Source: Ancylobacter mangrovi (GTDB taxonomy: Bacteria > Pseudomonadota > Alphaproteobacteria > Rhizobiales > Xanthobacteraceae). Taken from it: a stretch of DNA of 64,000 nucleotides. The notes under the pieces are model-generated. The model searched no databases. It had not been told where the DNA came from and was given only the letters and a program-made list of their open reading frames with translations. Each line of letters starts with the position of its first letter. Positions within the stretch are counted from its first letter, which is position 1. Positions 5,378 through 26,896 of the stretch are shown here, piece by piece. The stretch covers positions 1-64,000 of the forward strand of contig NZ_JANTHZ010000014.1 in NCBI RefSeq assembly GCF_024752355.1, written 5' to 3'. The position numbers were made by a program, and so were the translations under genes.

Positions 5378-6835
5378 TCACTCGACCGCGGTCTGCACCT
5401 GCACCGGGGCGCCGATCTTCTCCATCGAGCCGGAGGCGATCACCAGATAGCGCCGGCTGCCGGCGCTCCCGCCCTGCACCACCTGCCGGATCGGGCCGAC
5501 GGCGTTGACGATGGACGAGCCCGCCGGATTGGCCTTGAAGGCGGCGAGCGGTTCGAGCTCGCCCGAGCCGTCGGGCTTGTCGGCGAGCGCCAGCACGTAG
5601 GGGCTGCCGGGTTCGAGGCCGGTGACGGAGGCTTCCAGCACCTGCGTCAGCCCCTGGTCGAACAGCGCCACGCTGGTCGGGCTGGCGCCGTCCTTCGCGC
5701 CGGGCGCGGAGAGACGGAAATGCGCCACCGCGCCGGCGAGGCCGAGCGGCTGCAGATTGGCCGTGCCGGGGCCCTGCGGCACCGCGTCCGGCACATAGGC
5801 CACGGCCTGCGGCGCCTGGCCGATCGGGATCGTCGCCACCACCTTGTTGGTCAGCGTGTCGATGGCCGCGAGCTTCGCCGCGTTCTCGAGGCCGACATAG
5901 ACGCGCGTGCCGTCGCCCGAGGGCCACAGGCCGTGCGGCAGGTCGCCGACCGGGATGGTCGCCACCTCCTCGAACGTGTCGGTCCGGTAGACCTTGACCT
6001 CGTTGAGCCCGCCGATCGTCACATAGGCGAAGCTGCCCTTGGCGTTGCGGGCGAAGTTGACGTGGTTGGTGATCGGCCCGCTGTCGATGGTCTTCAGCAC
6101 CTTGAAGGGCGGGCGGGCGTCGAACACCTGGACCTTGCCGACATCCTTGAGCGTGAACCAGACCTGCTTGCCGTCGGGCGTGGCGGCGATGTTGGGGCAG
6201 AACGGGCTCGCCTGCTTCACCCGGCCGACGATCTTGTGGGTCGCGACGTCGACCACGTCGGTCTCCGGGTTGAAGGACGAGCAGACATAGCCGTACTTGC
6301 CGTCCGGCGAGAAGATCTGCATGCCGGGGCCGGCGGGCACCTTGATGCGCGTCTTCTCCTCGAAGGTCTTGCCGTCGAGCACGGCGACGTAGTCCTCGCC
6401 GCGCACCGTCACCCAGACCTCGCGGCCGTCCGGGGTGAAGAACGCCTCGTGCGGCGAGCGGCCGAGATAGGTGGTGTGCTTCACCGTGTTGGTCGCCGTG
6501 TCGATGAAGGTCACCGAGTTGCTGCCGGTGGAGACCACGGCGAGCGTGCGGTTGTCGGGCGAGAAGCCCATGCCGTGGACGAGGGTCTGGCCGCGATAGA
6601 GCGGCGAGAGGTTGCCGGGCTGGGGATCGCCGAGGCGGATGACGCCGAGCAGCGTGTTGCTGGCCGGGTCGGTGACTGAGACCGTGTTGGAGTACTGCTC
6701 GGCGGCGTAGACGCGGTCGCGATGGCTGACCGGAATGTCCTTCGCGGCGGCGGCATAGGGGGCCTGGCCCGCGAAGGCGGCGGCGCTGGCGAGCAGCGTC
6801 CCGGCCAGCGCGGCCAGGAAGGGGATGCGCTTCAT
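5378..6835 (-). CDS. Secreted YVTN-type beta-propeller protein
   Basis: 485 residues with a cleavable Sec signal (MKRIPFLAALAGTLLASAAAFA). The mature part is built from repeating blades such as NTVSVTDPASNTLLGVIRLG, SNSVTFIDTATNTVKHTTYLG and AKLAAIDTLTNKVVATIPIG, the YVTN/surface-layer propeller repeat, for roughly residues 40-360. A second, non-propeller domain follows (about 370-485). Family members are periplasmic or surface proteins with binding or scaffold roles, sometimes near cytochromes or metal enzymes; no catalytic residues can be assigned. It lies 57 bases downstream of the DUF305 gene and upstream of the sigma/anti-sigma pair, so it is probably both part of the stress response and co-transcribed with its regulator. 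Confidence 0.85.
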   Translation of the reverse strand: MKRIPFLAALAGTLLASAAAFAGQAPYAAAAKDIPVSHRDRVYAAEQYSNTVSVTDPASNTLLGVIRLGDPQPGNLSPLYRGQTLVHGMGFSPDNRTLAVVSTGSNSVTFIDTATNTVKHTTYLGRSPHEAFFTPDGREVWVTVRGEDYVAVLDGKTFEEKTRIKVPAGPGMQIFSPDGKYGYVCSSFNPETDVVDVATHKIVGRVKQASPFCPNIAATPDGKQVWFTLKDVGKVQVFDARPPFKVLKTIDSGPITNHVNFARNAKGSFAYVTIGGLNEVKVYRTDTFEEVATIPVGDLPHGLWPSGDGTRVYVGLENAAKLAAIDTLTNKVVATIPIGQAPQAVAYVPDAVPQGPGTANLQPLGLAGAVAHFRLSAPGAKDGASPTSVALFDQGLTQVLEASVTGLEPGSPYVLALADKPDGSGELEPLAAFKANPAGSSIVNAVGPIRQVVQGGSAGSRRYLVIASGSMEKIGAPVQVQTAVE

Positions 6836-6892
6836 CGGATTTTCCTGAGGTTTTGGATGGGGGAGGCGGCGGCGCCCGGATGGGCGGGCGGC

Positions 6893-7417
6893 CTAGTCGG
6901 CCGTGCCGGTGGGCGAGGGCGTCGAGGGCGGCAGCTTCTCGCCCACCGCGAGGCGCATCGCGGCGATCTCCTGCTGCTGCGTCACGATGATCTCCTGGGC
7001 GAGATATTTGAGCTTCTGGTTGGTGCCGTAGCGCAGCTCGAGCTTCGCCATGTCGATCGCGCCCTGGTGGTGCGGGACCATCATGTCGACGAAGTCCTTG
7101 TCGACGTCGCCGGTGGGCGCCACCGCCATGCCGGCCATCATGGTCGACATGGCGGCGTCATTGCCGTCGAGGAAGGGACGCTCGGCCGCGAGCGCGGCGG
7201 GGTCGGTGCCGGGCGCGGGCGCGGGGGCCGCCATCTTCATGGCGCCCATGTTCATGGCGTTCATGTCGTGAGCCAGCCCCGGGGCGGCGCTGCCACCCAG
7301 TGCCAGCACCGTGCCGACCAGCGCGCCGCGGGCGAACCCCGGGAGGGGGCGGAGGCTGCCGGAAAAAAGATTGCCGGCAAAGTTTCTGCGGAAGGTCCTG
7401 CGGATCGCGCCGGTCAT
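6893..7417 (-). CDS. DUF305 family exported protein
   Basis: 174 residues with a twin-arginine-like or Sec N-terminus (RRTFRR, then a hydrophobic stretch to GLAHD). The DUF305 signature PHHQGAIDMAKLEL is at residues 115-128, and the region before it is methionine- and histidine-rich (DMNAMNMGAMKM at 51-62, MSTMMAGM at 90-97). DUF305 proteins fold as ferritin-like four-helix bundles and several are linked to copper handling, which the Met/His clusters also suggest. It is the first gene of the operon that continues with the propeller and ECF module 1, and an ECF-like promoter lies directly upstream. Copper or another metal as ligand is inference. Confidence 0.87.
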   Translation of the reverse strand: MTGAIRRTFRRNFAGNLFSGSLRPLPGFARGALVGTVLALGGSAAPGLAHDMNAMNMGAMKMAAPAPAPGTDPAALAAERPFLDGNDAAMSTMMAGMAVAPTGDVDKDFVDMMVPHHQGAIDMAKLELRYGTNQKLKYLAQEIIVTQQQEIAAMRLAVGEKLPPSTPSPTGTAD

Positions 7418-12569: not shown

Positions 12570-14159
12570 TCAGAAGCCCATCGGCCCGCCGTCGCTGCGC
12601 GGGTCGCCGGCGCCTTCCAGCACGCCGTCGGCATGGCGCGCGATGGCGCCGGCATGGCCCATCATCTGGTCGAACGGCGCCACGACCTCGACGTCGTGCC
12701 CGGCCTCCCGCAGCGCCGCGACGAGTTCCGGCGGGAAGCGGCTTTCGAGCTTCAGCGTCACCGTCTCCGCGCCCCAGGTCCGCCCGAGCAGCCAGCGCGG
12801 CGCGGTGATCGCCGCCTGCAGCTCCTGCCCGAACAGGGCGTAGCGCGAGAACAGCGCCGCCTGCGTCTGTGGCTGGCCTTCGCCGCCCATGGTGCCGTAG
12901 ACCAGGCGCCGCCCGTCGGCGAAGGTGGCGAAGGCCGGGTTGAGGGTGTGGAACGGCTTGCGGCCGGGCGCCAGCACGCGCGGGCCCTCGCCACGGAGCT
13001 GGAAGCTGGAGCCGCGGTTCTGCCAGACGATGCCGCTCTGCGGCAGCACGACGCCAGAGCCGAACTCGAAATAGATGCTCTGGATGAAGCTCGCCGCCAT
13101 CCCCTCGCCGTCGATGGCGCCGAGCCAGACCGTGTCGCCGGCCGAGGGTGGCGCCGGCCAGGGCAGGGCGCGGGCGGGATCGATGCGGGCGGCGAGCCGG
13201 TCCAGCGCCTCGTCGGTGAGCCAGGCGCGCGGGTCCTCGCCCATGGCGTCGGGATCGCCGACGATCCGGTTGCGCACCAGGAAGGCCTGCTTGGTGGCCT
13301 CGACGAGGCCGTGCACGTGCGCGAACCCCTCCGCCGCGTCGACGCCGAGCCGCGCGAACAGGGCGAGGATCATCAGCGAGGACAGGCCCTGCGTGGGCGG
13401 GGGCATGTTGTAGAGCGTCATGCCGGGAAGGCCGACCGAGAGCGGCGCCACCCGCCGGGCGCGGCAGGCGGCGAGGTCCTCGGCGCTCACCGGCGAGCCG
13501 GCGGCGGCGAGGTCGTGCGCGATCTCGCGTGCGAGCGCGCCGCGATAGAAGGCGTCCGTCCCCTCGGTGCCGAGCCGGGCGAGCGTGTCGCCGAGCGCGG
13601 GCAGCTTCATCACCGATCCGGTCGCGGGCGCGGCGCCGTCGACGAGGAAGCTCGGCGCGAAGCCGGCGACGTCGGCGAGCTCGGGCAGCTTCTGCGCCGT
13701 CAGCTCACTCTGGCTGGCGGTGACGGGGAAGCCGTTGCGCGCGTGCCATACCGCGTCCTCGACCAGCCGGGACAGCGGCAGCCGGCCGCCCTTCTCGGCG
13801 CTGAGCGCCAGCGCCTCGCCCCAGCCGGCGACGGTGCCGGCGACCGTGTTGGCGGCGAGCGGACCGCGCGGGGGAATGACCTCCAGCCCGGCGTCGAGAT
13901 AGAGCGCGGGGGTGGCACGCGCGGCGGCGCGCCCGCAGGCCTCGATGCCGACCGGCGCCTCGCCCGGCGGGGCGACGAGCCAGAAGCCGTCGCCGCCGAT
14001 CGCGGTCATGTGCGGGTAGACCACGGCCAGGGTCGCGGCCATGGCGAGCGTCGCCTCGACCGCGTTGCCGCCCTCGCGCAGCACGCGCAGGCCCGCCTCG
14101 CTCGCCAGATGATGCGGCGATGTCACCATGCCCCGGCGGGCACGCGATGTGTTGAGCAT
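12570..14159 (-). CDS. ggt: Gamma-glutamyltransferase family protein
   Basis: 529 residues, the length of an uncleaved Ggt precursor. Signature parts: GMVTSPHHLASEAGLRVLREGGNAVEA near the start, AIGGDGFWLV, the large-subunit PPPTQGLSSL, and the autocleavage site GDTVWLGAIDGEG with the Ntn nucleophile Thr343. No signal peptide is present, so it is cytosolic unless exported otherwise. Ggt transfers or hydrolyses gamma-glutamyl groups of glutathione and related amides. The start is 16 bases after the TRAP gene dctM, so enzyme and importer form one operon; the pair may take up and open a gamma-glutamyl or lactam-like compound. The small-subunit substrate-binding GxGGE motif is present as GTMGGEGQPQ. 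Confidence 0.87.
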   Translation of the reverse strand: MLNTSRARRGMVTSPHHLASEAGLRVLREGGNAVEATLAMAATLAVVYPHMTAIGGDGFWLVAPPGEAPVGIEACGRAAARATPALYLDAGLEVIPPRGPLAANTVAGTVAGWGEALALSAEKGGRLPLSRLVEDAVWHARNGFPVTASQSELTAQKLPELADVAGFAPSFLVDGAAPATGSVMKLPALGDTLARLGTEGTDAFYRGALAREIAHDLAAAGSPVSAEDLAACRARRVAPLSVGLPGMTLYNMPPPTQGLSSLMILALFARLGVDAAEGFAHVHGLVEATKQAFLVRNRIVGDPDAMGEDPRAWLTDEALDRLAARIDPARALPWPAPPSAGDTVWLGAIDGEGMAASFIQSIYFEFGSGVVLPQSGIVWQNRGSSFQLRGEGPRVLAPGRKPFHTLNPAFATFADGRRLVYGTMGGEGQPQTQAALFSRYALFGQELQAAITAPRWLLGRTWGAETVTLKLESRFPPELVAALREAGHDVEVVAPFDQMMGHAGAIARHADGVLEGAGDPRSDGGPMGF

Positions 14160-14175
14160 GTGATGGGTACTCCGG

Positions 14176-15501
14176 CTACCAGCCGATGGCCCGGGGCAGC
14201 CAGGTGGCCAGGTCCGGGAAGGCGAACACCACCGCCACGGCGGCGATCTGCAGCGCGATGAAGGGCAGCACGCCGCGGTAGATGTCGCCGGTCGCGACCT
14301 CGGGCGGCGCCACGCCCCTCAGGTAGAACAGCGCCCAGCCGAAGGGCGGGGTGAGGAACGAGGTCTGCAGCACGGTGGCGATCAGCGCGGCGGCCCACAC
14401 CAGGTCGACCCCGGCATTGTTGAGCAGCGGCAGGAACATTGGCACCACGATGTAGCTGATCTCGATCCACTCGATGAAGAAGCCGAGCACGAAGATGATC
14501 GCCAGCATGAAGATGATGATGCCGTTGGTGCCGCCCGGCACCAGCGAGAACGCGTCGTGCACCAGTCGCTCGCCGCCGAGGCCGCGGAAGGACAGGGCGA
14601 AGACCTGCGAGCAGATCAGCACGAAGAACATCATCGCGGTGATGCGCGCCGTCGACTGCACCGTCGCCACCAGCACCTTCCAGGTGAAGCGGCGGGCGAT
14701 GGCGGCGACCAGGATCGAGCCGAGCGCGCCCATGCTGGCGGCCTCGGTCGGCGCCGCGATGCCGGCGATGATCGAGCCGAGCACGGCGAGCACGAGGCCG
14801 ATCGGCGGCAGGCCAACCTTGAGCACCTTCAGCCACAATTCGCCGCGCGGCATGGCCCGGCGTTCCTCGATCGGGACGGCGGGCACCTTCTCCGGCGAGA
14901 CGATGCCGACGACGATCATGTAGATGCAGAACACGCCGGTGAGCAGCAGCCCCGGCATCAGCGCGGCCGCGAACAGCGTGCCGACCGATTCGCCGAGGAT
15001 GTCGGCCAGCAGGATCAGCACCGTGCTGGGCGGGATGAGCTGGCCGAGCGTGCCGGAGGCGCAGATGGCGCCGCAGGCGAGACTCTTGTCGTAGCCGCGC
15101 CGCAGCAGGGTCGGCAGGGTGAGCAGGCCGAGCGTGACGATGGTGGCGCCGACGATGCCGGTGGTCGCCCCCATCAGCATGCCGACCAGCACGATGCCGA
15201 GCCCCATGCCGCCGCGCAGGCTGCCGGAGACATGGCCGATCACGTCCATCAATTCGTCGGCGAGGCGGGATTTCTCCAGCATCACGCCCATGAACACGAA
15301 GAGCGGGATGGCGATCAGCGTGTAGTTGGCGGTGACGCCGTAGATGCGGGCCGGCAGCAGGTTGAACAGCGTGGTGCCGAAGCCGAGCCAGCCGAAGAAG
15401 AAGCCGCTGATGGCGAGCGTGAGCGCCACCGGCACGCCGGCGAGGAGCAGCACGAAGAAGGAGGCGATGCAGGACATCGCCAGGATTTCATTGACGGGCA
15501 T
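14176..15501 (-). CDS. dctM: TRAP transporter large membrane subunit
   Basis: 441 residues with about twelve membrane helices, the normal DctM size. Conserved elements include LLAGVPVALTLAISGFFFG near the start, GRIYGVTANYTLIAIPLFVFMG, and the repeated GxxLGQLIPPST motif (ASGTLGQLIPPSTVLI). The start MPVNEILAMS at 15501 lies inside the end of dctQ (14-base overlap); the open frame further upstream is not family-like. DctM forms the sodium-coupled channel of the TRAP importer together with DctQ, and takes the solute from the periplasmic DctP. Followed by ggt. Confidence 0.92.
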   Translation of the reverse strand: MPVNEILAMSCIASFFVLLLAGVPVALTLAISGFFFGWLGFGTTLFNLLPARIYGVTANYTLIAIPLFVFMGVMLEKSRLADELMDVIGHVSGSLRGGMGLGIVLVGMLMGATTGIVGATIVTLGLLTLPTLLRRGYDKSLACGAICASGTLGQLIPPSTVLILLADILGESVGTLFAAALMPGLLLTGVFCIYMIVVGIVSPEKVPAVPIEERRAMPRGELWLKVLKVGLPPIGLVLAVLGSIIAGIAAPTEAASMGALGSILVAAIARRFTWKVLVATVQSTARITAMMFFVLICSQVFALSFRGLGGERLVHDAFSLVPGGTNGIIIFMLAIIFVLGFFIEWIEISYIVVPMFLPLLNNAGVDLVWAAALIATVLQTSFLTPPFGWALFYLRGVAPPEVATGDIYRGVLPFIALQIAAVAVVFAFPDLATWLPRAIGW

Positions 15502-16036
15502 CGGTGGGCACCGGCGAGGCGGGATGGGACCCGCCGCCAAGGAAGGGCTGGATCGCGCGAAGCGTCGCGGCGATGCTCTGGAGCAGCAGCAGCGCGAAGC
15601 CGGCGGGGATCATCGCCTTGAGGATGAAGCGGTAGGGCAGGCCGCCGGGATCGGGCGAGCCCTCGCCGATGACGTAGGACTGCTTGACGTAGTGCCAGGA
15701 CAGCACGATCACGATCACCGACAGCGCCACCACGCACAGCGCGGAGAACAGGTCGATCACCTCCCGCACCACGGCGGGGAAGTGGGCATAGGCGATGTCC
15801 ACCCGGACATGGCCCTCATGCTTGACCGTGTAGGCGATGCACAGCAGCGTCAGCGGCGACATCAGGTGCCATTCCAGCTCCTGCATCGCCACCGAGCCGA
15901 CGTTGAAAATGTACCGCGCCAGCACGTTGCCGGCCATGACGAGGACGAGCGCGAGGCCCGTCCACGCCGCGGCCCGGCCGCAGACCTCGACGATGGCGTC
16001 GAGGACGCGGGCGCATCTTTCCAGCGCTTCGTTCAT
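15488..16036 (-). CDS. dctQ: TRAP transporter small membrane subunit
   Basis: 182 residues with four predicted membrane helices: LALVLVMAGNVLARYIFN, LTLLCIAYTV, LFSALCVVALSVIVIVLSW and FALLLLQSIAATLRAI. The motif EWHLMSPLTLLCIAYTVKHEGHVRVD is characteristic of DctQ. The ATG at 16036 overlaps the dctP stop by four bases, so the three TRAP genes are translationally coupled. It joins the substrate-binding protein to the large permease. Confidence 0.9.
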   Translation of the reverse strand: MNEALERCARVLDAIVEVCGRAAAWTGLALVLVMAGNVLARYIFNVGSVAMQELEWHLMSPLTLLCIAYTVKHEGHVRVDIAYAHFPAVVREVIDLFSALCVVALSVIVIVLSWHYVKQSYVIGEGSPDPGGLPYRFILKAMIPAGFALLLLQSIAATLRAIQPFLGGGSHPASPVPTDARQ

Positions 16037-17127
16037 GCGCCCCTGCGGATCTGGGTCTGGTAGACCGCTTCCGACAGGCCGGCCCACTGGCTGTGCTGGG
16101 CGGCGAAGGCGTTGAAGCTGTCATAGACCTTCTGGATCTTCGGGTCGGAGGCGGCGAGCTGGTCGAGCGTGGTCTTGGTGACCTCGCGCAGCTTGTCCAC
16201 TACGGGCTTGGGCAGCGGGCCGGCGATGACGCCCTGGTTCTGCACGAGGTCGGTCATCGCCTCGCCGTTGGTCGCCTCGCACCAGGTGTGGCTGATGACG
16301 TTGCAGGCCGCGGCCGCGGTGCGCACGATCTCCTTCAGGTCGTCGGGCAGGCTGTCCCAGGCGGCCTTGTTGACCACCAGCTCGGTGACGTTGTTCGGCT
16401 CGTGCCAGCCGGTCGTGTAGTAGTACTTGGCCGCCTTCTGCAGGCCGAGGCGACGGTCCTGGTAGGGGCCGACGAACTCGGCCGCGTCGATCACGCCGCG
16501 CTCCAGCGCGGGGAAGATCTCGCCGCCGGGCAGCAGCTTCACGTCGACGCCGAGCTGGGCGTAGACCTTCCCGGCGAGGCCCGGGATGCGCATCTTCAGG
16601 CCCTGGAAGTCCTCGACCTTCTCGATCGGCTTGCGGAACCAGCCGGACATCTGCACGCCGGTATTGCCGAGCGGCATCGGCACCAGGTTGAAGGGCTCGT
16701 AGAGCTCCTCCCAGAGCTGCAGGCCGCCGCCATGGTAGATCCACGCGGTCTGGCCCTGGAAGTTGAGGCCGAACGGCACGCAGGTGAAGAACTGCGCCGC
16801 CGGCACCTTGCCGGCCCAGTAATAGGAGTTGGCCGCGTTCATCTCGACCGTGCCGGCGGAGACCGCGTCGAAGCCCTCCAGCGCCGGGATCAACTCGCCG
16901 GCGGCGAAGTGCTGGATGTTGAGCCGGCCGCCCGACATCTTGCCGACCAGGTCGCAGAAATAGGTCGGGCTGCCCGGACCGACGACATAGAAGGGCGAGC
17001 CGGGACCGTAGGCGTTGGTCATCTTCCAGTTGAACGTCTGCTGCGCGCGGGCGACGTGCGGCGCGGCGACGGTGGCGACGGCCGCTGTACCGGCGAGGCC
17101 GGCGCCCAGAAATCCACGACGATCCAT
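16033..17127 (-). CDS. dctP: TRAP transporter periplasmic substrate-binding protein
   Basis: 364 residues with a twin-arginine-type leader (MDRRGFLGAGLAGTAAVATVAA, cleavage about AHVARAQQ). The mature protein follows the DctP fold, with GRLNIQHFAAGELIPALEGFDAVSAGTVEM, GLKMRIPGLAGKVY and the ligand-site region EFVGPYQDRRLGLQKAAKYYYTTGWHEPNN, which resembles the 2-oxoacid/monocarboxylate-binding TakP group. TRAP ligands normally carry a carboxylate bound by a conserved arginine (here in KMRIPG). It opens the dctPQM-ggt operon, divergent from the AraC-amidase fusion. Binding of a gamma-glutamyl amide or an amide-containing carboxylate would link all partners but is inference. Confidence 0.9.
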   Translation of the reverse strand: MDRRGFLGAGLAGTAAVATVAAPHVARAQQTFNWKMTNAYGPGSPFYVVGPGSPTYFCDLVGKMSGGRLNIQHFAAGELIPALEGFDAVSAGTVEMNAANSYYWAGKVPAAQFFTCVPFGLNFQGQTAWIYHGGGLQLWEELYEPFNLVPMPLGNTGVQMSGWFRKPIEKVEDFQGLKMRIPGLAGKVYAQLGVDVKLLPGGEIFPALERGVIDAAEFVGPYQDRRLGLQKAAKYYYTTGWHEPNNVTELVVNKAAWDSLPDDLKEIVRTAAAACNVISHTWCEATNGEAMTDLVQNQGVIAGPLPKPVVDKLREVTKTTLDQLAASDPKIQKVYDSFNAFAAQHSQWAGLSEAVYQTQIRRGA

Positions 17128-17280
17128 CTCGAATCCCTCTGATGTTTGCGCCCCGACGGGTTCCGCTGGGCGATGCGTGGCCGGAATATCCCGGTTATAC
17201 CGCAGTGCGGCAATGCCCCCTGTGGTGCAGAAATGCGCGTGCGGGGGCGCGACGAAAAGGCATGAAATCGCCGTTTATGA

Positions 17281-17300
17281 TGCAACCACAAATGGTTGTA
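17281..17300. promoter_or_regulatory. Inverted repeat between dctP and the AraC-amidase gene
   Basis: TGCAACCACAAATGGTTGTA contains perfect CAACCA/TGGTTG arms (17283-17288, 17293-17298) around a 4-base centre, with 7 of 8 pairs when extended. It lies midway in the 276-base divergent gap and is a plausible site for the AraC-type regulator or another factor controlling both directions. Confidence 0.45.
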
Positions 17301-17403
17301 AGGGCATGCCCGGGAAGTGGGCAGCCCCGCCGGGCTGGCGCCAGACAAGTTTTTGTGCGCCAATCGTCAAACAGCTTCGCCGGCCCCTCGCCGGCTTCCT
17401 CCC

Positions 17404-19758
17404 ATGAAGATCCGCCCCATGAGCCGCACCGTCCCGGTCTCGATCGCCGCCTTCCCCGCCAGCAAGCAGGAGGCCGCCTGGCGCGAGACGCTGGGCATGC
17501 TGTCGCTGTCCGACCAGTGGCCGAAAGGGGCGGCGTTCCATTTCGGCGAGATCTCGATCAAGCGCTCGCCGACGCTGGCGACGCTCGCCCTGCTACGCTC
17601 CACCGCGCAGGTGCTGAAGACGCGGGCGGACGAGGCCGACGGCGTGCTGATCGGCTTCGTGCATTACGGGCGCGGGCACCTCACCGATACCGGCCGGCGC
17701 GCGTTCGAATTCGCCGATGGCGATCTGTGGGTGTGCGATCCGCTCGCCGCCGGCACGATCCAGTTCCGCAACGATTTCGAGCTGCTGCTGCTGCGGGTGC
17801 CGCGCGAGCGGCTGGCGGGGCGCATCGGCCGGGGCGCGGAGGTGGCGACGATCGTGCTCGGCGAGAGCGTCTCGGCCGCCGCCACGCGGCCGATGATGCG
17901 CGCGCTGGCGGCCAATTTCGCGATGATGGAGGATGGCGAGCTGATCGCCGCCGAGACCGCGATCACCGAGCTGGTGCTGTCGGCCCTGCTGGCCGAGGCG
18001 CGCCCGGAGGAGGACAACGCCACCCAGGTGCAGGCCGCCCATCTCGCCCGCGTCTGCGCGCAGATCGAGGCGCGGCTGCGCGAGCCCGACCTCTCGGTCG
18101 CCGACATCGCCAAGGCCGAGGGCCTGTCGCCGCGCTACGTGCAGCGCCTGTTCGAGGGGCAGGACCGCGCCTTTTCCGACTATGTGCGCCATCGGCGGCT
18201 GGAGCGCTGCCGGCTCGACCTGATCAACCCGCACCATGCCGACCGCAGCATCGCCGAGATCGGCTATCGCTGGGGCTTCGGCGACCAAGCCCATTTCAGC
18301 CGCGTGTTCAGCGCCGCCTACGGCATCGCCCCGCGCGAGTTCCGCAAGTCGAGCAGCGGCGCGGTGGAGACGCGCTGGACCCGCGGCCGGCCGATCCATA
18401 GCGGGGTGCGCCCGATGCGGCCGGGGCCCTCGCCGGTGCCCGCGCCGGAGGAGGCCGACGCGCCGGCCGCCGAGGCCCGCGCGCGGGCGCCGGAGCCCTC
18501 CGAGCCCGGCCGCCACCATCTTCCCGTCTCGCGCGAGACCGTGCACTGGGGCTATCTCAGCCGCTCCATCCCGCCGGTGCTGCGCGTGCGCTCGGGCGCC
18601 ATCGTCACGGTCGAGACGCTGACCCAGCACGCCTATGACGACCATGAGCGGATGATAAAGGGCGATCCGGGCGCGGAGAGCGTGTTCCGTTGGAGCCGGG
18701 ACTACAAGGCGGTCGACCGGCGCGGCGCCGGGCCGGTGAATGCCAGCATCTTCGGGCGCGGCGCCGGCGAGGGGTTCGGCGTGCACATCTGCACCGGGCC
18801 GATCTTCGTCCATGGCGCCGAGCCGGGCGACGTGCTGGAGGTGCAGATACGCGACCTGCGCCCGCGCCCCTGCGCCAACCCGGCCTATGCCGGGCAGGCC
18901 TTCGGCAGCAACGCCGCCTCCGCCTGGGGCTTCCACCATGACGACCTGCTGGACGAGCCGCGCAAGCGCGAGGTCGTCACCATCTACCGCACCGACGCGG
19001 CCGGCGAGAGCGGCTATGCCGAGGCGGTCTATTCCTTCCGCTGGGTGCCGCAGACCGACCCGTTCGGCGTGGTGCACGAGACCATCGACTATCCCGGAAT
19101 CCCGGTCGACCACGCCCGGCTCACCGAGCGCCACGGCGTGATGAAGGGCGTGCGCGTGCCGGTGCGCCCGCATTTCGGCTTCATCGCGGTGGCGCCGCGC
19201 GAGAGCGACATCGTCGATTCCGTCCCGCCCGGCTATTTCGGCGGCAATGTCGACAACTGGCGGGCAGGCAAGGGCTCCTCGGTCTATCTCCCCGTCACCG
19301 TGCCCGGCGCGCTGCTTTCGGTCGGCGACCCGCATCTGGCACAGGGTGACGGCGAGATCAGCGGCACGGCGCTGGAATGCTCGCTGACCGGCGAGATAAG
19401 GCTGGTGTTGCACAAGAGGGGCGAGACCGAGAAGGCGTTCCTGAACGGGCTCAACGCGCCGCTGATCGAAACCGAGGGCGCCTTCCTGCTGCACGGCTTC
19501 AGCTACACCAACTATCTGCGCGAGCTCGGGCGCAACGCGCAGTCCGAGGTGTTCAAGCGCTCCTCGCTGAGCCGGGCGCTGCGCAGCGCGGTGCGCGCAA
19601 CCCGCAAGTTCCTGATGGAGCGCTACGAGCTCGACGAGGACGAGGCGATCTCGCTGATGTCGGTGGCGGTCGATTTCGGAGTGACGCAGGTCGCCGACGG
19701 CAATTGGGGCGTCCATGCCAAGGTGGACAAGCCGATGTTTCCCGCCCCGGAGCGGTGA
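17404..19758 (+). CDS. AraC-family regulator fused to an acetamidase/formamidase domain
   Basis: 784 residues in one uninterrupted frame from ATG 17404 (ATG 17419 and GTG 17317 are alternatives; no strong ribosome site marks any of them). Residues 1-200 form an AraC-type sensor domain; about 212-315 hold two AraC helix-turn-helix units (LSVADIAKAEGLSPRYVQRLF and SIAEIGYRWGFGDQAHFSRVF). A Pro/Ala/Glu-rich linker spans 320-370. Residues 375-784 are a full FmdA/AmdA domain: GPIFVHGAEPGDVLEVQI, HFGFIAVAP, GGNVDNWRAGKGSSVYLPV and the VGDPHLAQGDGE motif. The enzyme part should release ammonia from a short amide. Joining regulator and enzyme suggests substrate sensing within the same protein. It faces the dctPQM-ggt operon. 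Confidence 0.88.
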   Translation: MKIRPMSRTVPVSIAAFPASKQEAAWRETLGMLSLSDQWPKGAAFHFGEISIKRSPTLATLALLRSTAQVLKTRADEADGVLIGFVHYGRGHLTDTGRRAFEFADGDLWVCDPLAAGTIQFRNDFELLLLRVPRERLAGRIGRGAEVATIVLGESVSAAATRPMMRALAANFAMMEDGELIAAETAITELVLSALLAEARPEEDNATQVQAAHLARVCAQIEARLREPDLSVADIAKAEGLSPRYVQRLFEGQDRAFSDYVRHRRLERCRLDLINPHHADRSIAEIGYRWGFGDQAHFSRVFSAAYGIAPREFRKSSSGAVETRWTRGRPIHSGVRPMRPGPSPVPAPEEADAPAAEARARAPEPSEPGRHHLPVSRETVHWGYLSRSIPPVLRVRSGAIVTVETLTQHAYDDHERMIKGDPGAESVFRWSRDYKAVDRRGAGPVNASIFGRGAGEGFGVHICTGPIFVHGAEPGDVLEVQIRDLRPRPCANPAYAGQAFGSNAASAWGFHHDDLLDEPRKREVVTIYRTDAAGESGYAEAVYSFRWVPQTDPFGVVHETIDYPGIPVDHARLTERHGVMKGVRVPVRPHFGFIAVAPRESDIVDSVPPGYFGGNVDNWRAGKGSSVYLPVTVPGALLSVGDPHLAQGDGEISGTALECSLTGEIRLVLHKRGETEKAFLNGLNAPLIETEGAFLLHGFSYTNYLRELGRNAQSEVFKRSSLSRALRSAVRATRKFLMERYELDEDEAISLMSVAVDFGVTQVADGNWGVHAKVDKPMFPAPER

Positions 19759-19816: not shown

Positions 19817-22087
19817 TCAGGCCGCGGCCGGCACCAGCAGGTCGTCGAGCCCGATCGGGAAGTGGCGCACCCGCACGCCGGTGGCGTGCCAGACCGCGTT
19901 CGCCACCGCGCCGGCCGAGCCGGTGATGCCGATCTCGCCCACGCCCTTGATACCGAGCGCGTTTACGTGCGGGTCGTGCTCCTCGATCATCAGCGCATCG
20001 AGCGAGGGCACGTCGGCATTCACCGGGATGTGGTACTCGGCGAGGTCCGCGTTCAGGATGCGGCCGGAGCGCCGGTCCATGACGGCGTGCTCGTGGAGGG
20101 CGAAGGAGATGCCCCAGATCATGCCGCCATAGAACTGGCTGCGCACCATCCGGGGATTGATCACCCGCCCGGCCGCGAAGGCGCCGACGAGGCGCGTGGC
20201 GCGCACCTGGCCGAGGTCCGGGTCCACCTTCACCTCGGCGAACACCGCGCCATGGGCGTGCATGGCGTAGGTCTCCTGCACCGACGGGTCTGGCGCCGCC
20301 GAGCCCTTGCCCTCGATCTGCGCGAGGCCGGCGCGGGCGAGGATGTCGCCATAGCCCTCGCTACGGCTCTCGTCGTCGCGCCGGTGGAGCCGTCCCTCGC
20401 GGGCGACGACGCCGGCATTGCCGGCGCCGAACAGGGGCGAGCGCTCGTCGCCGGTGGCAAGCGCGGCGAGTTTGGCGACCACGTCCGCGCCCGCATTGTG
20501 GATCGCCATGCCGGCGGTGGCGGTGTGGGCCGAGCCGCCGGCGATGCCGGCATCGGGCAGGTCCGAGGTGCCGGCGCGGAACTCCGTCCGGTCGAGATCG
20601 AGGCCGAGGGCGTCGGCCGCGATCTGGGCGAGGGCGGTCCACGCCCCCTGGCCCATGTCGTGGGCGCCGGTCTCCATCACGCCGGAGCCGTCGCGGCGCA
20701 GCACTGCGCGCGCCTCGGCCTGGAACATCAGCGCCGGGAAGGTGGCTGTGCCCATGCCCCAGCCGACCAGATAGCCGTTCTCGTCGCGCATCTTGCGCGG
20801 CTCGATCGTGCGGCGCGACCAGCCGAAACGCTCGGCGCCCTGGCGGTAGCATTCGCGCAGCGCCTTGGAGGAGAAGGGCTTGCCGGAGATCGGTTCGACC
20901 TCGGCATAGTTCTTCAGGCGGAAGGCGAGCGGGTCCATGCCGCAGGCGAAGGCGGCCTCGTCGATCGCCCCTTCGAGCGCGATCGAGCCGGTGGCCTCGC
21001 CGGGCGCGCGCATGAAGAGCGGGGTGCCGATATCCGCCCGCACCGCCTCGTGCGAGGTGAGGATGGCGGGGGCGGCATAGAGCGTATGGGAGATGTCCGC
21101 CGCCGGCTCGAAGAAGTCGTCGAAGGTGCTCGAGACGGTCTTGGCGTGGTGGTGGAGGGCGGAGAGCTTCCCCTCGCCGTCGAAGCCGAGGCGCAGCGTC
21201 TGGCGGGTGGGCGGGCGATGGCCGACCGGCCCGTACATCTGGTCGCGGCGCAGCACCAGCTTCACCGGCCGTCCGACCAGCTTCGCCGCCATGATGCCGA
21301 GCACCTGCGGGCCCGAGACCAGGCCCTTGGAGCCGAAGCCGCCGCCGAGGAAGGGGCTGCGGATGTGGATGTTCTCCGGCGCGATGCCGAACAGGCCGGC
21401 GAGCCGGCCCTGCGCCATCGCCAGGCCCTGGCTGGGCGTGTCGATGGAGAGCGTGTCGCCGTCCCAGGCCGCGACGATGGCGTGCGGCTCCATGGCGTTG
21501 TGGTACTGGGCCGGCGTCTCGTAGGTCGCCTCCAGCCGGTGCTCGGCGCGCGCGAGCGCGGCCTCCACGTCGCCGCGCTCGATGCGTGCGGGCGAGCCGA
21601 TGCCGATCGCCGCCGGCTCGAAGCTTTCGTCGGCGTCGAGCCCGACCCGGGCCGGCTCCTCCTCGTAGCGCGGCGCCAGCAGCGCCGCGCCCTCGGTCGC
21701 GGCCTCGAGCGAGCGGGCGACCACCACCGCGATCGGCTGGTGGGCGTAGCGCACCAGATCGTTCTGCAGCAGGTCGAGCCGGAACATGAAGGGGTTGGTC
21801 TTCGCGTCCGGGTCCATGGCGAGCTCCGGCTTGTGCGCCGGGGTCATCACGTCGACCACGCCCGGATGGGCCTTGGCCGCGTCGACGTCGAGCGCGACGA
21901 CGCGCCCGCGGGCGATGGAACTGGTCGCCATGACGGCGAACAGCATGCCCTCGGGATGGTTGTCGGCGGCATAGGTGGCCGCGCCCGTCACCTTCAGCAC
22001 GCCGTCGCGGCGGGTGAGGGGCTGGCCGATATTGGAGCCGTGCCTCGTATGGGCCGGCACCGTGGAGAGGCTGATCTCAGACGTCAT
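19817..22087 (-). CDS. paoC: Aldehyde/xanthine oxidoreductase, molybdenum-cofactor subunit (PaoC-like)
   Basis: 756 residues, matching PaoC (YagR) and clearly shorter than fused xanthine dehydrogenases. Molybdopterin-binding signatures are IGQPLTRRDGVLKVTGAATYAAD at the start, HNAMEPHAIVAAW, SPFLGGGFGSKG, MRAPGEATGSIALEGAIDE, GAHDMGQGAWTALAQIAAD and the terminal GIKGVGEIGITGSAGAVANAV, whose GVGE glutamate is the catalytic base. The gene overlaps the FAD-subunit gene by 11 bases. With PaoA and PaoB it forms an aldehyde oxidising complex; aromatic aldehydes are known PaoABC substrates. No maturation chaperone (PaoD/XdhC type) is encoded next to it, so one must come from elsewhere. Confidence 0.9.
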   Translation of the reverse strand: MTSEISLSTVPAHTRHGSNIGQPLTRRDGVLKVTGAATYAADNHPEGMLFAVMATSSIARGRVVALDVDAAKAHPGVVDVMTPAHKPELAMDPDAKTNPFMFRLDLLQNDLVRYAHQPIAVVVARSLEAATEGAALLAPRYEEEPARVGLDADESFEPAAIGIGSPARIERGDVEAALARAEHRLEATYETPAQYHNAMEPHAIVAAWDGDTLSIDTPSQGLAMAQGRLAGLFGIAPENIHIRSPFLGGGFGSKGLVSGPQVLGIMAAKLVGRPVKLVLRRDQMYGPVGHRPPTRQTLRLGFDGEGKLSALHHHAKTVSSTFDDFFEPAADISHTLYAAPAILTSHEAVRADIGTPLFMRAPGEATGSIALEGAIDEAAFACGMDPLAFRLKNYAEVEPISGKPFSSKALRECYRQGAERFGWSRRTIEPRKMRDENGYLVGWGMGTATFPALMFQAEARAVLRRDGSGVMETGAHDMGQGAWTALAQIAADALGLDLDRTEFRAGTSDLPDAGIAGGSAHTATAGMAIHNAGADVVAKLAALATGDERSPLFGAGNAGVVAREGRLHRRDDESRSEGYGDILARAGLAQIEGKGSAAPDPSVQETYAMHAHGAVFAEVKVDPDLGQVRATRLVGAFAAGRVINPRMVRSQFYGGMIWGISFALHEHAVMDRRSGRILNADLAEYHIPVNADVPSLDALMIEEHDPHVNALGIKGVGEIGITGSAGAVANAVWHATGVRVRHFPIGLDDLLVPAAA

Positions 22088-23135
22088 GGTGCAGTTCCGG
22101 AAGCGAGGAGAAGGGCGAGCCGGGCAGGGCGGGCACGCGCTCGGGCGTGCCTGAGGCGGCGAGCGCGAGGGCGCGCACCACCAGCCGGCGGGCCAGCTCG
22201 ATCTTGAAGGCGTTGTCGCCGGAGGGGCGGGCCCCGGCGAGGGCGAGCTCCGCCGCGCGGCGGAACGCTTCCTCGTCCGGGCGGGCGCCGGCGAGGGCCT
22301 GCTCGGCCCAGGCGTCGCGCCAGGGCTTTGCCGCGACCCCGCCCAGCGTCAGCCGGGCCTCGGCGATCACCCCGCCCTCGAGGCGCAGCATCGCCGCCGC
22401 GGAGACCACGGCGAAGGCGTAGGAGGTGCGCTCGCGCAGCTTGATGTAGCGGGCATGGCCGGCGAAGGCGGCAGCGCCGGCCGGCAGGCGCACCGCGACG
22501 ATCAGATCGCCGGGCTCCAGCGCGGTGTCCTTCTCCGGCGCGTCGCCGGGCAGGCGGTGCAGCTCGGCGAGCGGCACCTCGCGCCGGCCGCCGCGGCCCT
22601 CGATCTCGACCACCGCGTCGAGCGCCACCAGCGGCACGCAGAAGTCGGACGGATGGGTGGCGATGCAGGCATCGCTCCAGCCGAGCACGGCGTGCAGCCG
22701 GTTCTCGCCGGCGCGCGCGTCGCAGCCCGAGCCCGGCACGCGCTTGTTGCAGGCGCTGTCGAGGTCGGCGAAATAGGCGCAGCGCGTGCGCTGGAGCAGG
22801 TTGCCGCCGACGCTGGCCGCGTTGCGCAGCTGCCCTGAGGCGCCCGAGAGCAGGGCCTCCGCCACCGCCGGGAAGGACGCGGCGAAGCGCGGATCGTGGG
22901 CGAGGTCGGCATTGCGCACCATGGCGCCGATGCGCACGCCCCCGTCTTCCAGCCACTCGACGGCGTCGAGGCCGGGCAGGCGGGTGACGTCGACCAGCCG
23001 GCCGGGCCGGGCGACACCGCCCTTCATGAGGTCGAGAAGATTGGTGCCGGCGGCGAGATAGGCCGCGCCGGGCGCTGCCGCGGCCGCGACCGCTTCGGGG
23101 ACGGTGGCGGGGCGGATATAGTCGAAATCGTTCAT
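22077..23135 (-). CDS. paoB: Molybdenum hydroxylase FAD-binding subunit with extra 4Fe-4S site (PaoB-like)
   Basis: 352 residues starting MNDFDYIRPATVPEAVAA; the longer open frame upstream belongs to the PaoA region in another frame. FAD contacts are YLAAGTNLLDLMKGG (residues 26-40) and ASVGGNLLQRTRC (107-119). The insertion RCAYFADLDSACNKRVPGSGC and a later WSDACIATHP place Cys119, Cys129, Cys138 and Cys157 like the additional 4Fe-4S cluster of E. coli PaoB, which marks this group off from ordinary CoxM proteins. It passes electrons from the molybdenum site and 2Fe-2S clusters to the final acceptor. Its ATG overlaps the PaoA stop by four bases. Confidence 0.9.
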   Translation of the reverse strand: MNDFDYIRPATVPEAVAAAAAPGAAYLAAGTNLLDLMKGGVARPGRLVDVTRLPGLDAVEWLEDGGVRIGAMVRNADLAHDPRFAASFPAVAEALLSGASGQLRNAASVGGNLLQRTRCAYFADLDSACNKRVPGSGCDARAGENRLHAVLGWSDACIATHPSDFCVPLVALDAVVEIEGRGGRREVPLAELHRLPGDAPEKDTALEPGDLIVAVRLPAGAAAFAGHARYIKLRERTSYAFAVVSAAAMLRLEGGVIAEARLTLGGVAAKPWRDAWAEQALAGARPDEEAFRRAAELALAGARPSGDNAFKIELARRLVVRALALAASGTPERVPALPGSPFSSLPELHHDV

Positions 23136-23644
23136 GCCGCGTCCCTCCGGCCCGCATCGGTACCGCCGGCTTCGGCCAGCTTCTTCTGGGCGTCGAGCAC
23201 CGCCTCGGTGATGCCGGCATAGGCCGAGCAACGGCAGAGATTGCCGCTCATCCCCTCGCGCACGCGCTCGGGATCGCCGTCCGTCTGGCCTTCCTGGATC
23301 AGGCCGATGGCGCTCATGATCTGGCCCGGCGTGCAGAAGCCGCACTGCAGCGCGTCATGGGCGATGAAGGCTTCCTGCACCGGGTGGAGGTGCCCGCCCT
23401 CGGCAACGCCCTCGATGGTGCGGATGTCGGCCCCGTCATGGCTCAGCGCCAGGGCGAGGCAGGAATTGATGCGCCGGCCGTCGACCAGCACGGTGCAGGC
23501 GCCGCACTGGCCGCGGTCGCAGCCCTTCTTGGTGCCGGTGAGTTGAAGTCGCTCGCGCAGGAGGTCGAGCAGGGTCACCCGTGGGTTGTCCAGCTCGACG
23601 TCGCGCCTTACACCGTTCACGGTGAGGCTGATGGAGAAAGTCAT
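23132..23644 (-). CDS. paoA: Molybdenum hydroxylase 2Fe-2S subunit (PaoA-like)
   Basis: 170 residues with two 2Fe-2S clusters: the plant-ferredoxin type at Cys42, Cys47, Cys50 and Cys62 (GCDRGQCGAC ... NSC) and the second at Cys101, Cys104, Cys137 and Cys139 (CGFC ... CRC). Unlike E. coli PaoA there is no twin-arginine leader: the protein starts directly with MTFSISLTVNGV, so the complex should stay in the cytoplasm. First gene of the paoABC-like operon, with a near-consensus promoter about 150 bases upstream and a divergent TetR regulator. Confidence 0.92.
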   Translation of the reverse strand: MTFSISLTVNGVRRDVELDNPRVTLLDLLRERLQLTGTKKGCDRGQCGACTVLVDGRRINSCLALALSHDGADIRTIEGVAEGGHLHPVQEAFIAHDALQCGFCTPGQIMSAIGLIQEGQTDGDPERVREGMSGNLCRCSAYAGITEAVLDAQKKLAEAGGTDAGRRDAA

Positions 23645-25373: not shown

Positions 25374-25831
25374 CGCCGGCCTCCTTCCCGGGCGCCGCGG
25401 TCGCCGAACCGGCCCCGGCCGATCCCGGCGGCACCCGCGCCGGGCGCCGTTCAAATTCCCACCACGCCCCGCCGGCCCATGCCGCCAAAGCGGTCACTGT
25501 CCCGCCGCAGGATAAGTCCCGCTCATCTCCCGCGTCGCATTGCATGAAGATGGCGTCGCTCCATTAATAATATTCTCCAACCATGAATGGAATGCATGTC
25601 ATTCCAAATATTGCTCAGTATTTTCTCATTTTCGGCCTAGTTTATGGCCATAGCCGATCAAATAGCGGGCAAACTCACCGTTTCGCTGCCGCAGGGAAAT
25701 TCTGGCGCGGCGCTTGCCCTGAAGGCACCGAGATCGAGAACGCCGCCGGCAGGTCCGGGCGCCCGTCGCGCCGGAACGGACCGGGCCGTCGCTCCATCGA
25801 TCCGTCATGTGATGAACTGGTGAGAACTACG
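25374..25831. promoter_or_regulatory. Divergent regulatory gap with inverted repeat 25588-25606
   Basis: This 458-base gap between the LysR gene and the monooxygenase cluster has no coding pattern. Its middle (about 25555-25665) is strongly A+T-rich. TGGAATGCATGTCATTCCA at 25588-25606 is a perfect 7+7 inverted repeat around CATGT and is the best operator candidate. The ATG at 25583 starts a frame joined to the monooxygenase, but it runs through the palindrome and is unlikely to be used. Confidence 0.55.
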
Positions 25832-26896
25832 ATGGAAATCGGCATCTGGCTTCCGGTGTATGGGGGATGGCTGCGCTCCCTCGACGCGCCAACGGGACCC
25901 GACGTCGCCGCCTGCCTCGCGATCGCCCAGCAGGCGGAGGCGCTCGGCTTCGACTTCCTCTACGCGTCCGAAAACCTGCTCAACTGCATTCACGGCCCGG
26001 CCGAGAGCGTCGCGGACGCCTGGAGCATCCTCGCCGCCATCGCCGCCGTGACCAACAAGGTGGGGCTGTGCGGGGCGGTGAAGCCAGGCTTCCGCTCGCC
26101 CTTCCTGGTGGCGCGGATGCTGGACACGCTGTCCAAGATCTCTGAGCGCCGGCTCGGCATGAACATCGTCTGCGGCTGGTGGAAGGAGGAGTTCGATCTC
26201 TCCGGCGTCGACTGGCTGGACCATGACGGGCGCTACGACCGCGCGGCCGAGTTCCTGCGCTCGCTGAACGGGCTGTTCCAGCCGCCGGCCGACGCGATGG
26301 CGGGCGGGGAGGACGGTGCCGGCGAGGGCGGGATCGGCGCGCCGCCCAGCTATGGCCTCGACCCGGCGGCGCTGCCCGAGATCTGGATCGCCGGCCATTC
26401 CGACCGCGCCGTGCGCATGGCGGCCGAATGGGGGCACTGCCTCTTCCTGAACGGCATGAGCGACGAGGAGCTCAAGCAGCGGATCGAGAACATCCGTCAG
26501 GAGGCCAACAACTGGGGGCGCGACATCCTCGTCGCCGCCAACGCCTACGTCATCGCCACCGAGACCAGCGAGCAGGCGCGGCAGCGGTGGAAGTCGGTCG
26601 TCTCGCGGCGAAACCCGGACACGATCGGCTTCTTCCGCCAGGTGATCGGGGATTCGGGGGCGGCGGCGTGGTCCTCGCTGTCCGAGGACCAGATGGTCGA
26701 CTCCAATGCCGGCTTCGAGCTCGGCCTGATCGGCTCCTTCGAGGACATCCGCCAGCGCATCCCCAAGCTCGAATCGATCGGGCTGAACCGCATCGTGTGC
26801 CAGTTCGACGACCCGATGCGCGACGCCGGCCCGTTCATGAAGCACGTCATCCGGCCGCTGCGCACCTCGCGGCCGCTCGAGCTGACCGCGAAGTGA
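25832..26896 (+). CDS. Luciferase-like (LLM class) flavin-dependent monooxygenase 1
   Basis: 354 residues starting MEIGIWLPVYGGWL. It has the TIM-barrel pattern of the bacterial luciferase family in the SsuD/SfnG/RutA branch: FDFLYASENLLNC, KVGLCGAVKPGFRSPFLVARM, RLGMNIVCGWWKEEFDLSG (the flavin/substrate loop) and PEIWIAGHSDRAVRMAAEWG. Such enzymes use reduced flavin and oxygen to split C-S, C-N or ring amide bonds. A glycine/glutamate insertion (MAGGEDGAGEGGIGAP) near residue 155-170 is unusual. A flavin reductase gene follows after 11 bases, making a two-component system. The substrate cannot be read from the sequence. Confidence 0.85.
   Translation: MEIGIWLPVYGGWLRSLDAPTGPDVAACLAIAQQAEALGFDFLYASENLLNCIHGPAESVADAWSILAAIAAVTNKVGLCGAVKPGFRSPFLVARMLDTLSKISERRLGMNIVCGWWKEEFDLSGVDWLDHDGRYDRAAEFLRSLNGLFQPPADAMAGGEDGAGEGGIGAPPSYGLDPAALPEIWIAGHSDRAVRMAAEWGHCLFLNGMSDEELKQRIENIRQEANNWGRDILVAANAYVIATETSEQARQRWKSVVSRRNPDTIGFFRQVIGDSGAAAWSSLSEDQMVDSNAGFELGLIGSFEDIRQRIPKLESIGLNRIVCQFDDPMRDAGPFMKHVIRPLRTSRPLELTAK

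Follow-up and report, generated by a model that had tools for sequence, protein, structure and literature searches.

We analysed a window of 64,000 nucleotides from Ancylobacter mangrovi (contig NZ_JANTHZ010000014.1, positions 1 to 64,000) that contains a gene in which an AraC-type regulator and an acetamidase/formamidase (FmdA/AmdA) domain are fused in one polypeptide. We give about an even chance to the reading that this gene encodes an AraC/FeaR-like activator with its C-terminal FmdA/AmdA domain as an amide detector, and that it controls nearby genes for amide uptake and hydrolysis as well as itself.

The frame at 17404-19758 on the plus strand translates to 784 residues with zero internal stops. 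Because the start codon kept across aligned relatives is the ATG at 17419 (residue 6) and not 17404, the actual product is probably 779 residues long; the database copy of the window's own protein, P0002, has 779 residues. The open frame of the first-pass annotation is retained, with a start that probably lies at 17419. The parts of the gene are:

17419..19758, plus strand: AraC-amidase fusion gene, 779 residues (784 with the earlier start at 17404)
17581..17991, plus strand: AraC_binding_2 sensor/dimerisation domain, residues 60-196 (Pfam)
18106..18348, plus strand: double helix-turn-helix DNA-binding domain, residues 235-315 (HTH_18)
18358..18507, plus strand: variable Pro/Ala-rich linker, residues 319-368, the part with the lowest identity
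18511..19749, plus strand: FmdA/AmdA amidase domain, residues 370-782
19324..19356, plus strand: GDPHLAQGDGE motif, residues 641-651, with D642, H644, Q647, D649, and E651

Translation and Pfam agree on the proposed order of an AraC sensor, a double helix-turn-helix, and a full FmdA/AmdA domain in one open frame: AraC_binding_2 is found at residues 60-196, HTH_18 at 235-315, and the best stretch of FmdA_AmdA at 606-763, each above its curated cut-off. HTH_18 (PF12833) scores 69.8 bits against a cut-off of 33.6, which places the protein with the double-helix-turn-helix regulators of the AraC/XylS type, and the FmdA/AmdA domain (PF03069) passes its gathering cut-off and has the acetamidase fold. 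The VGDPHxxQGDGE motif noted earlier in the amidase domain is read at residues 640-651 as VGDPHLAQGDGE. The linker is 48% identical within the window's group and 21.3% over all fused pairs, and in the predicted structure residues 318-364 have a predicted local distance difference test (pLDDT) score below 50. The best NCBIfam profile for the fusion is PRK09685 FeaR (NF007243; 126.4 bits, below the 199-bit cut-off), and the equivalog profile for formamidase FmdA (NF045496) gives 60.9 bits, far below its cut-off of 500 bits.

The fusion is conserved and occurs in many genera. A protein database search returned 3049 matches at E <= 1e-3, and PF12833 and PF03069 occur together in 120 of 120 proteins among the matches listed, including P0002. 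Fifteen same-genus orthologues are 81-90% identical over almost the full length, and the stops flagged in four same-genus orthologues (including L022) are natural terminal stops. Loci from named genomes were the best 80 of at least 247 confirmed relatives, ranked by match to the fusion; because they were chosen in this way, they are uninformative on the frequency of unfused relatives. All 80 carry the fused gene, and they belong to alpha-, beta-, and gammaproteobacteria, as expected of a fusion conserved in several genera.

The proposal that such a fusion is rare holds in part. The family has many members, and only 2 of 241 genomes in an even class-wide draw, the window's own included, have a fusion matching at E <= 1e-100. 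In that draw, with at most four candidates scored per genome, three genomes have a match at E <= 1e-100: the own genome, G072 (a fusion), and G278 (a separate amidase only). Of 41 near genomes, 24 have a match at E <= 1e-60; 23 of these are among the 25 same-genus genomes (own included), and the match in the 24th, G039, is limited to the amidase part. Four plasmid records match partially and none matches over 80% of the query. Several database records are named 'acetamidase/formamidase/AraC-like DNA-binding protein', so the architecture is already known to annotators; no publication title naming an AraC-FmdA/AmdA fusion was found among the literature matches listed. Two same-genus genomes contain more fusions (G004:C13:183293-185554 and G018:C23:103898-106156, with 52% and 50% identity), both with no adjoining amidase in the same-genus match list.

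Genes for transport and hydrolysis are linked to the fusion. We scanned the fetched 9 kb at each of the 80 loci (14 of the window type and 66 others); some queries were possibly cut from a gapped alignment row, so boundaries may shift somewhat. In the window, the fused gene lies divergent from genes for a tripartite ATP-independent periplasmic (TRAP) transporter and a gamma-glutamyltransferase (GGT)-family protein:

16033..17127, minus strand: DctP, TRAP solute-binding protein, divergent, kept in 14 of 14 window-type loci
15488..16087, minus strand: DctQ, TRAP small permease, kept in window-type loci
14176..15540, minus strand: DctM, TRAP large permease, kept in window-type loci
12570..14159, minus strand: GGT-family hydrolase, no obvious signal peptide, best PDB match 5hft

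All four genes are present in 14 of 14 window-type loci, and a separate amidase is absent from the fetched sequence of all 14. The GGT-family gene scores under the cut-off of TIGR00066. In L049, the DctM match (5658-7002) is in two adjoining pieces, which suggests a frameshift in the assembly or the gene.

A separate amidase is encoded within the fetched 9 kb in 60 of the 66 other loci, at a distance of at most 1 kb in 53 and of 2.4-6.8 kb in the remaining seven. These partners fall into class i (25), class ii (22), and class iii (13, shorter). All 25 class-i partners have an RRxF N-terminus like that of twin-arginine translocation (Tat) substrates. The alignment of class-ii partners starts at residue 1-3 of the own-genome enzyme, and 19 of the 22 are accompanied by an ATP-binding cassette (ABC) permease/ATPase with at least 60% identity to the own-genome one. 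Six loci are without a separate amidase. L071 has a cut fragment at the contig edge and the sequences of L077 and L087 stop early, which leaves L066, L088, and L119 as true exceptions. L102, not of the window type, has an extra 58% relative of the window's GGT gene, and CPCC 101076 has both locus types in one organism (L049 and L051).

A paralogous fusion (C17:244815-247148) is also present in the own genome. It lies directly behind a gene for a separate amidase (C17:247255-248529), and the cluster also includes a solute-binding protein and an ABC permease/ATPase. Going by the listed places, 16 of the 25 same-genus genomes have a fusion-amidase pair like this one. Three more FmdA/AmdA-type proteins (L010, L011, and L012) are encoded in the own genome, so the strain may have several amide-hydrolysing enzymes.

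The amidase domain retains the residues conserved in its family. Of 82 fused domains, 79, among them that of the window, keep all 25 conserved positions checked; the three that deviate are L104 (D642H), L119 (T761S), and L094 (cut at its end). D642H in L104 is the sole change in the GD.H motif among the 82; it could mark a naturally inactive protein or stem from misassembly of a metagenome-assembled genome. In three canonical own-genome members, 23 of the 25 positions are identical too (H590 and D757 are not), and H461 is N in 2f4l, so the positions are not all invariant across the superfamily. At three positions the fused domains differ from classes i and ii: they have Q408, F612, and L629 where those classes have H, T, and Y. 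F612 and L629 are also present in two of the three canonical own-genome members. A dead sensor domain is unsupported, as the conserved residues are retained.

Conservation is highest in the amidase part, with a mean identity over 3321 fused pairs of 67.1%, against 53.9% for the helix-turn-helix, 29.5% for the N-terminal part, and 21.3% for the linker. The ratio of nonsynonymous to synonymous substitution rates (dN/dS) in eight comparisons is 0.10-0.24 for the amidase part and 0.14-0.51 for the N-terminal part. Compared with class-i partners, fused domains show lower conservation (65.4% vs 77.0%, in every one of 300 pairs). Their average is also below that of class ii (77.4% vs 82.0%, with the reverse in 89 of 253 pairs) and above that of class iii (75.9% vs 70.5%).

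In a quick tree of 81 of the 147 amidase rows, with support from the Shimodaira-Hasegawa-like approximate likelihood ratio test (SH-aLRT) and no bootstrap, the fused domains form one weakly supported clade (80). A single old fusion event likely lies behind all of them, although the tree does not show this firmly. The tree does not resolve the branching order among this clade, class i (96), and class ii (99), so we dropped the idea that the fused domains are sister to the Tat-exported class i; their mean identity is 61.3% to class i and 57.5% to class ii. The window type is a clade (99) nested in a clade of 17 fused rows (100), the other 10 of which each have a class-i partner. Because of this nesting, the window arrangement looks derived: the separate amidase would have been lost or left behind, with the TRAP-GGT operon in its place.

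We predict an operator for the fusion in the intergenic region between dctP and the fused gene. The two candidate sites there are:

17344..17371, plus strand: putative operator GACAAGTTTTTGTGCGCCAATCGTCAAA, half-sites 22 bp apart, 47 nucleotides before the conserved ATG
17281..17300, no strand: palindrome proposed by the first-pass annotation, present in the window, sequence not conserved in relatives

In an alignment of this region from the window, 14 named loci, and L013 (n = 16), a single block stands out as strongly conserved, CAAGTTTTTGTGCGnnnnTCGTCAA, with few variants. It lies at 17346-17370 in the window and about 45-70 nucleotides before the match start in the 15 measured. The block contains GACAAG and GTCAAA as half-sites with a spacing of 22 bp, a putative direct repeat with a distance known for AraC-family dimers, whose half-sites lie about two helical turns apart. 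The palindrome at 17281-17300 had been suggested as the binding site and was rejected: its sequence is lacking in 15 aligned relatives, and among 15 upstream regions (the window and 14 loci) a stem beyond shuffles at p < 0.05 occurs only in the window, L043, and L049, each with a different sequence. The direct repeat at 17344-17371 is the better candidate. A further inverted repeat resembling TGCCCC..GGGGCA (window 17214-17229) lies about 90-100 bp upstream of dctP in many Ancylobacter-type aligned sequences and is possibly the site of another regulator or part of the dctP promoter.

Matches to the element also occur at some of the other loci. A position weight matrix (PWM) was trained on 13 sites of the window type, taken from the 15 in the named loci and the window by omitting L047 and L108, and run on the 66 other loci, with zones defined as the 450 bp upstream, on the same strand, of a fusion, amidase, or binding-protein gene (2.8% of the sequence, measured from match starts and not from mapped start codons). 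At a score of at least 14 there are 18 hits in 18 loci, 16 of them in zones, against 3 hits and none in zones for the reversed matrix. At 12 the counts are 24 hits with 19 in zones (control 5, none in zones), at 16 they are 11 with 9 in zones (control 0), and at 18 they are 9 with 8 in zones (control 0). The nominal binomial value for this enrichment is overstated because the loci are related. The own genome has two hits to the element at no more than three mismatches, against one for the reversed control, and only the one at 17350 stands out.

The neighbouring genes offer clues to the ligand. The closest PDB entries to DctP (16033-17127) are the ketoacid-binding protein 7ug8 and SmoM (2hzk). 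The GGT-family protein matches the two chains of 5hft with E values of 1.3e-88 and 3e-78; we take 5hft to be the oxamate amidohydrolase HpxW of the GGT family. As oxamate resembles pyruvate and the neighbours are ketoacid-binding-like and HpxW-like, the ligand is possibly, by analogy, an amide-bearing 2-oxo acid such as oxamate. HpxW is reported to convert oxamate to oxalate and ammonium (PMC5270733). FmdA/AmdA enzymes are reported to hydrolyse formamide or acetamide, and the same source describes a substrate-induced fmd cluster of Methylophilus with a putative regulator and amide uptake genes (PMC10781810).

We propose that the fused amidase domain, a relative of the separate amidases beside the fusions, serves as the ligand detector. 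An amide reaching the cytoplasm would be bound in the amidase pocket. This may alter the activator on the direct repeat with 22-bp spacing, so that neighbouring genes for amide uptake and hydrolysis are switched on. In most relatives a likely target would be the separate amidase, which is either exported by the Tat route or cytoplasmic and paired with an ABC importer. In the window's group the fusion would be autoregulated, because the element precedes the fused gene itself beside the TRAP-GGT operon, and it may also serve that divergent operon, including dctP. We favour a sensor because a separate hydrolase encoded near most of the fusions examined makes a second enzyme redundant, yet the amidase residues are strongly constrained. 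Turnover is likely possible too, because those residues are intact. The first-pass annotation had left open whether the amidase domain is the sensor or whether DNA binding is tied to amide turnover; the neighbourhoods and putative operator favour the former, and the intact residues leave room for the latter.

Several points weigh against the amidase as amide detector. Conservation is common in enzyme cores and therefore no specific sign of sensing, and the kept residues fit an active enzyme equally well. Ligand sensing could in fact lie in the N-terminal AraC_binding_2 domain. The tree leaves unsettled whether class i or class ii is nearest to the fused domains. No PWM hit at a score of at least 14 is found in 48 of the 66 other loci, the motif count takes related loci as independent, and the paralogue locus (L009) lacks the element even at 15 of 21 letters. 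No copy of the element faces dctP in the window type, where the best reverse-strand matches have 10-13 of 21 letters and the forward copy 17-19.

The fusion may instead be a bifunctional trigger enzyme, which we consider less likely: the fused amidase would itself be catabolic and replace the separate amidase in the window type, and the AraC part would regulate its own gene and the TRAP operon. This fits the 79 of 82 fused domains with all 25 checked positions, the amidase-part dN/dS of 0.10-0.24, and the higher average conservation than class iii (75.9% vs 70.5%). It also fits the lack of a separate amidase in the fetched sequence of 14 of 14 window-type loci, where an element that in several other loci precedes a separate amidase precedes the fused gene. 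However, a dedicated amidase nearby would make a second enzyme redundant in 60 of 66 other loci, and the window operon has its own GGT-family hydrolase. The fused domains are also less conserved than class i in all 300 pairs and on average than class ii, and Q408, F612, and L629 differ from the H, T, and Y of these classes.

A self-limiting sensor, the boldest reading and a somewhat doubtful one, would combine both activities: the fused amidase would bind the inducing amide, activate the amide operon through the direct repeat, and break down this inducer at a slow rate. One molecule would then be sensor, switch, and timer, and in the window type the fusion would be its own main target. An N-terminal sensor, with the amidase domain as a passenger or a means of oligomerisation only, is unlikely: AraC_binding_2 has the lowest conservation of the folded parts (29.5% over all pairs), and a pure scaffold would not need the conserved amidase residues that are kept. 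An assembly or frameshift join of two genes at the linker, named earlier as a possible cause of the fusion, is refuted and almost certainly wrong, since all 120 listed proteins and all 80 named loci (the latter kept for their fusion match) have both domains in the same frame, and no evidence supporting a join was found.

Other genes of the window lie to the right of the fusion. Genes for the molybdenum-binding and flavin adenine dinucleotide (FAD) subunits of an aldehyde/xanthine oxidoreductase (19817-23345, minus strand) are convergent with the fused gene, and these right-hand neighbours have no match in the 14 window-type loci. A gene for a flavin mononucleotide (FMN)-dependent monooxygenase (25583-26896, plus strand) has as its closest profile the dimethylsulfone monooxygenase SfnG, below the cut-off.

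The fusion may illustrate clearly how a transcription factor can take over, as its ligand detector, a relative of an enzyme under its own control, with the conserved residues kept. It makes testable the general question of whether one active site can serve both catalysis and gene control, and the conserved element and the frequent pairing with a separate amidase are direct experimental handles. The family could also provide ready-made amide biosensors.

Among known systems, activators of the FeaR type (AraC/XylS) likewise have an N-terminal AraC_binding_2 domain and a double helix-turn-helix. The FeaR profile (303 positions) is without the C-terminal enzyme part, the fusion scores below its cut-off, and the putative ligand and operator of the fusion may differ from those of FeaR. 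The closest solved member of FmdA/AmdA (PF03069), 3b9t from Methylobacillus flagellatus, is a separate protein named as a Tat signal protein, whereas the amidase domain of the fusion follows a DNA-binding protein and has the class changes Q408, F612, and L629. The neighbour at 12570-14159 is most like 5hft, presumably HpxW, and is part of a TRAP operon. Enzyme-bearing AraC proteins and trigger enzymes include Ada, FtrA and GbdR with their DJ-1/PfpI-like domains, and PutA, all of which likewise carry a regulator and an enzyme fold in one chain. Compared with these, the fusion uses another enzyme family, placed C-terminal of the helix-turn-helix, and its conserved residues are not degraded. It is thus an enzyme-bearing AraC regulator, a kind already known, here with a different enzyme family.
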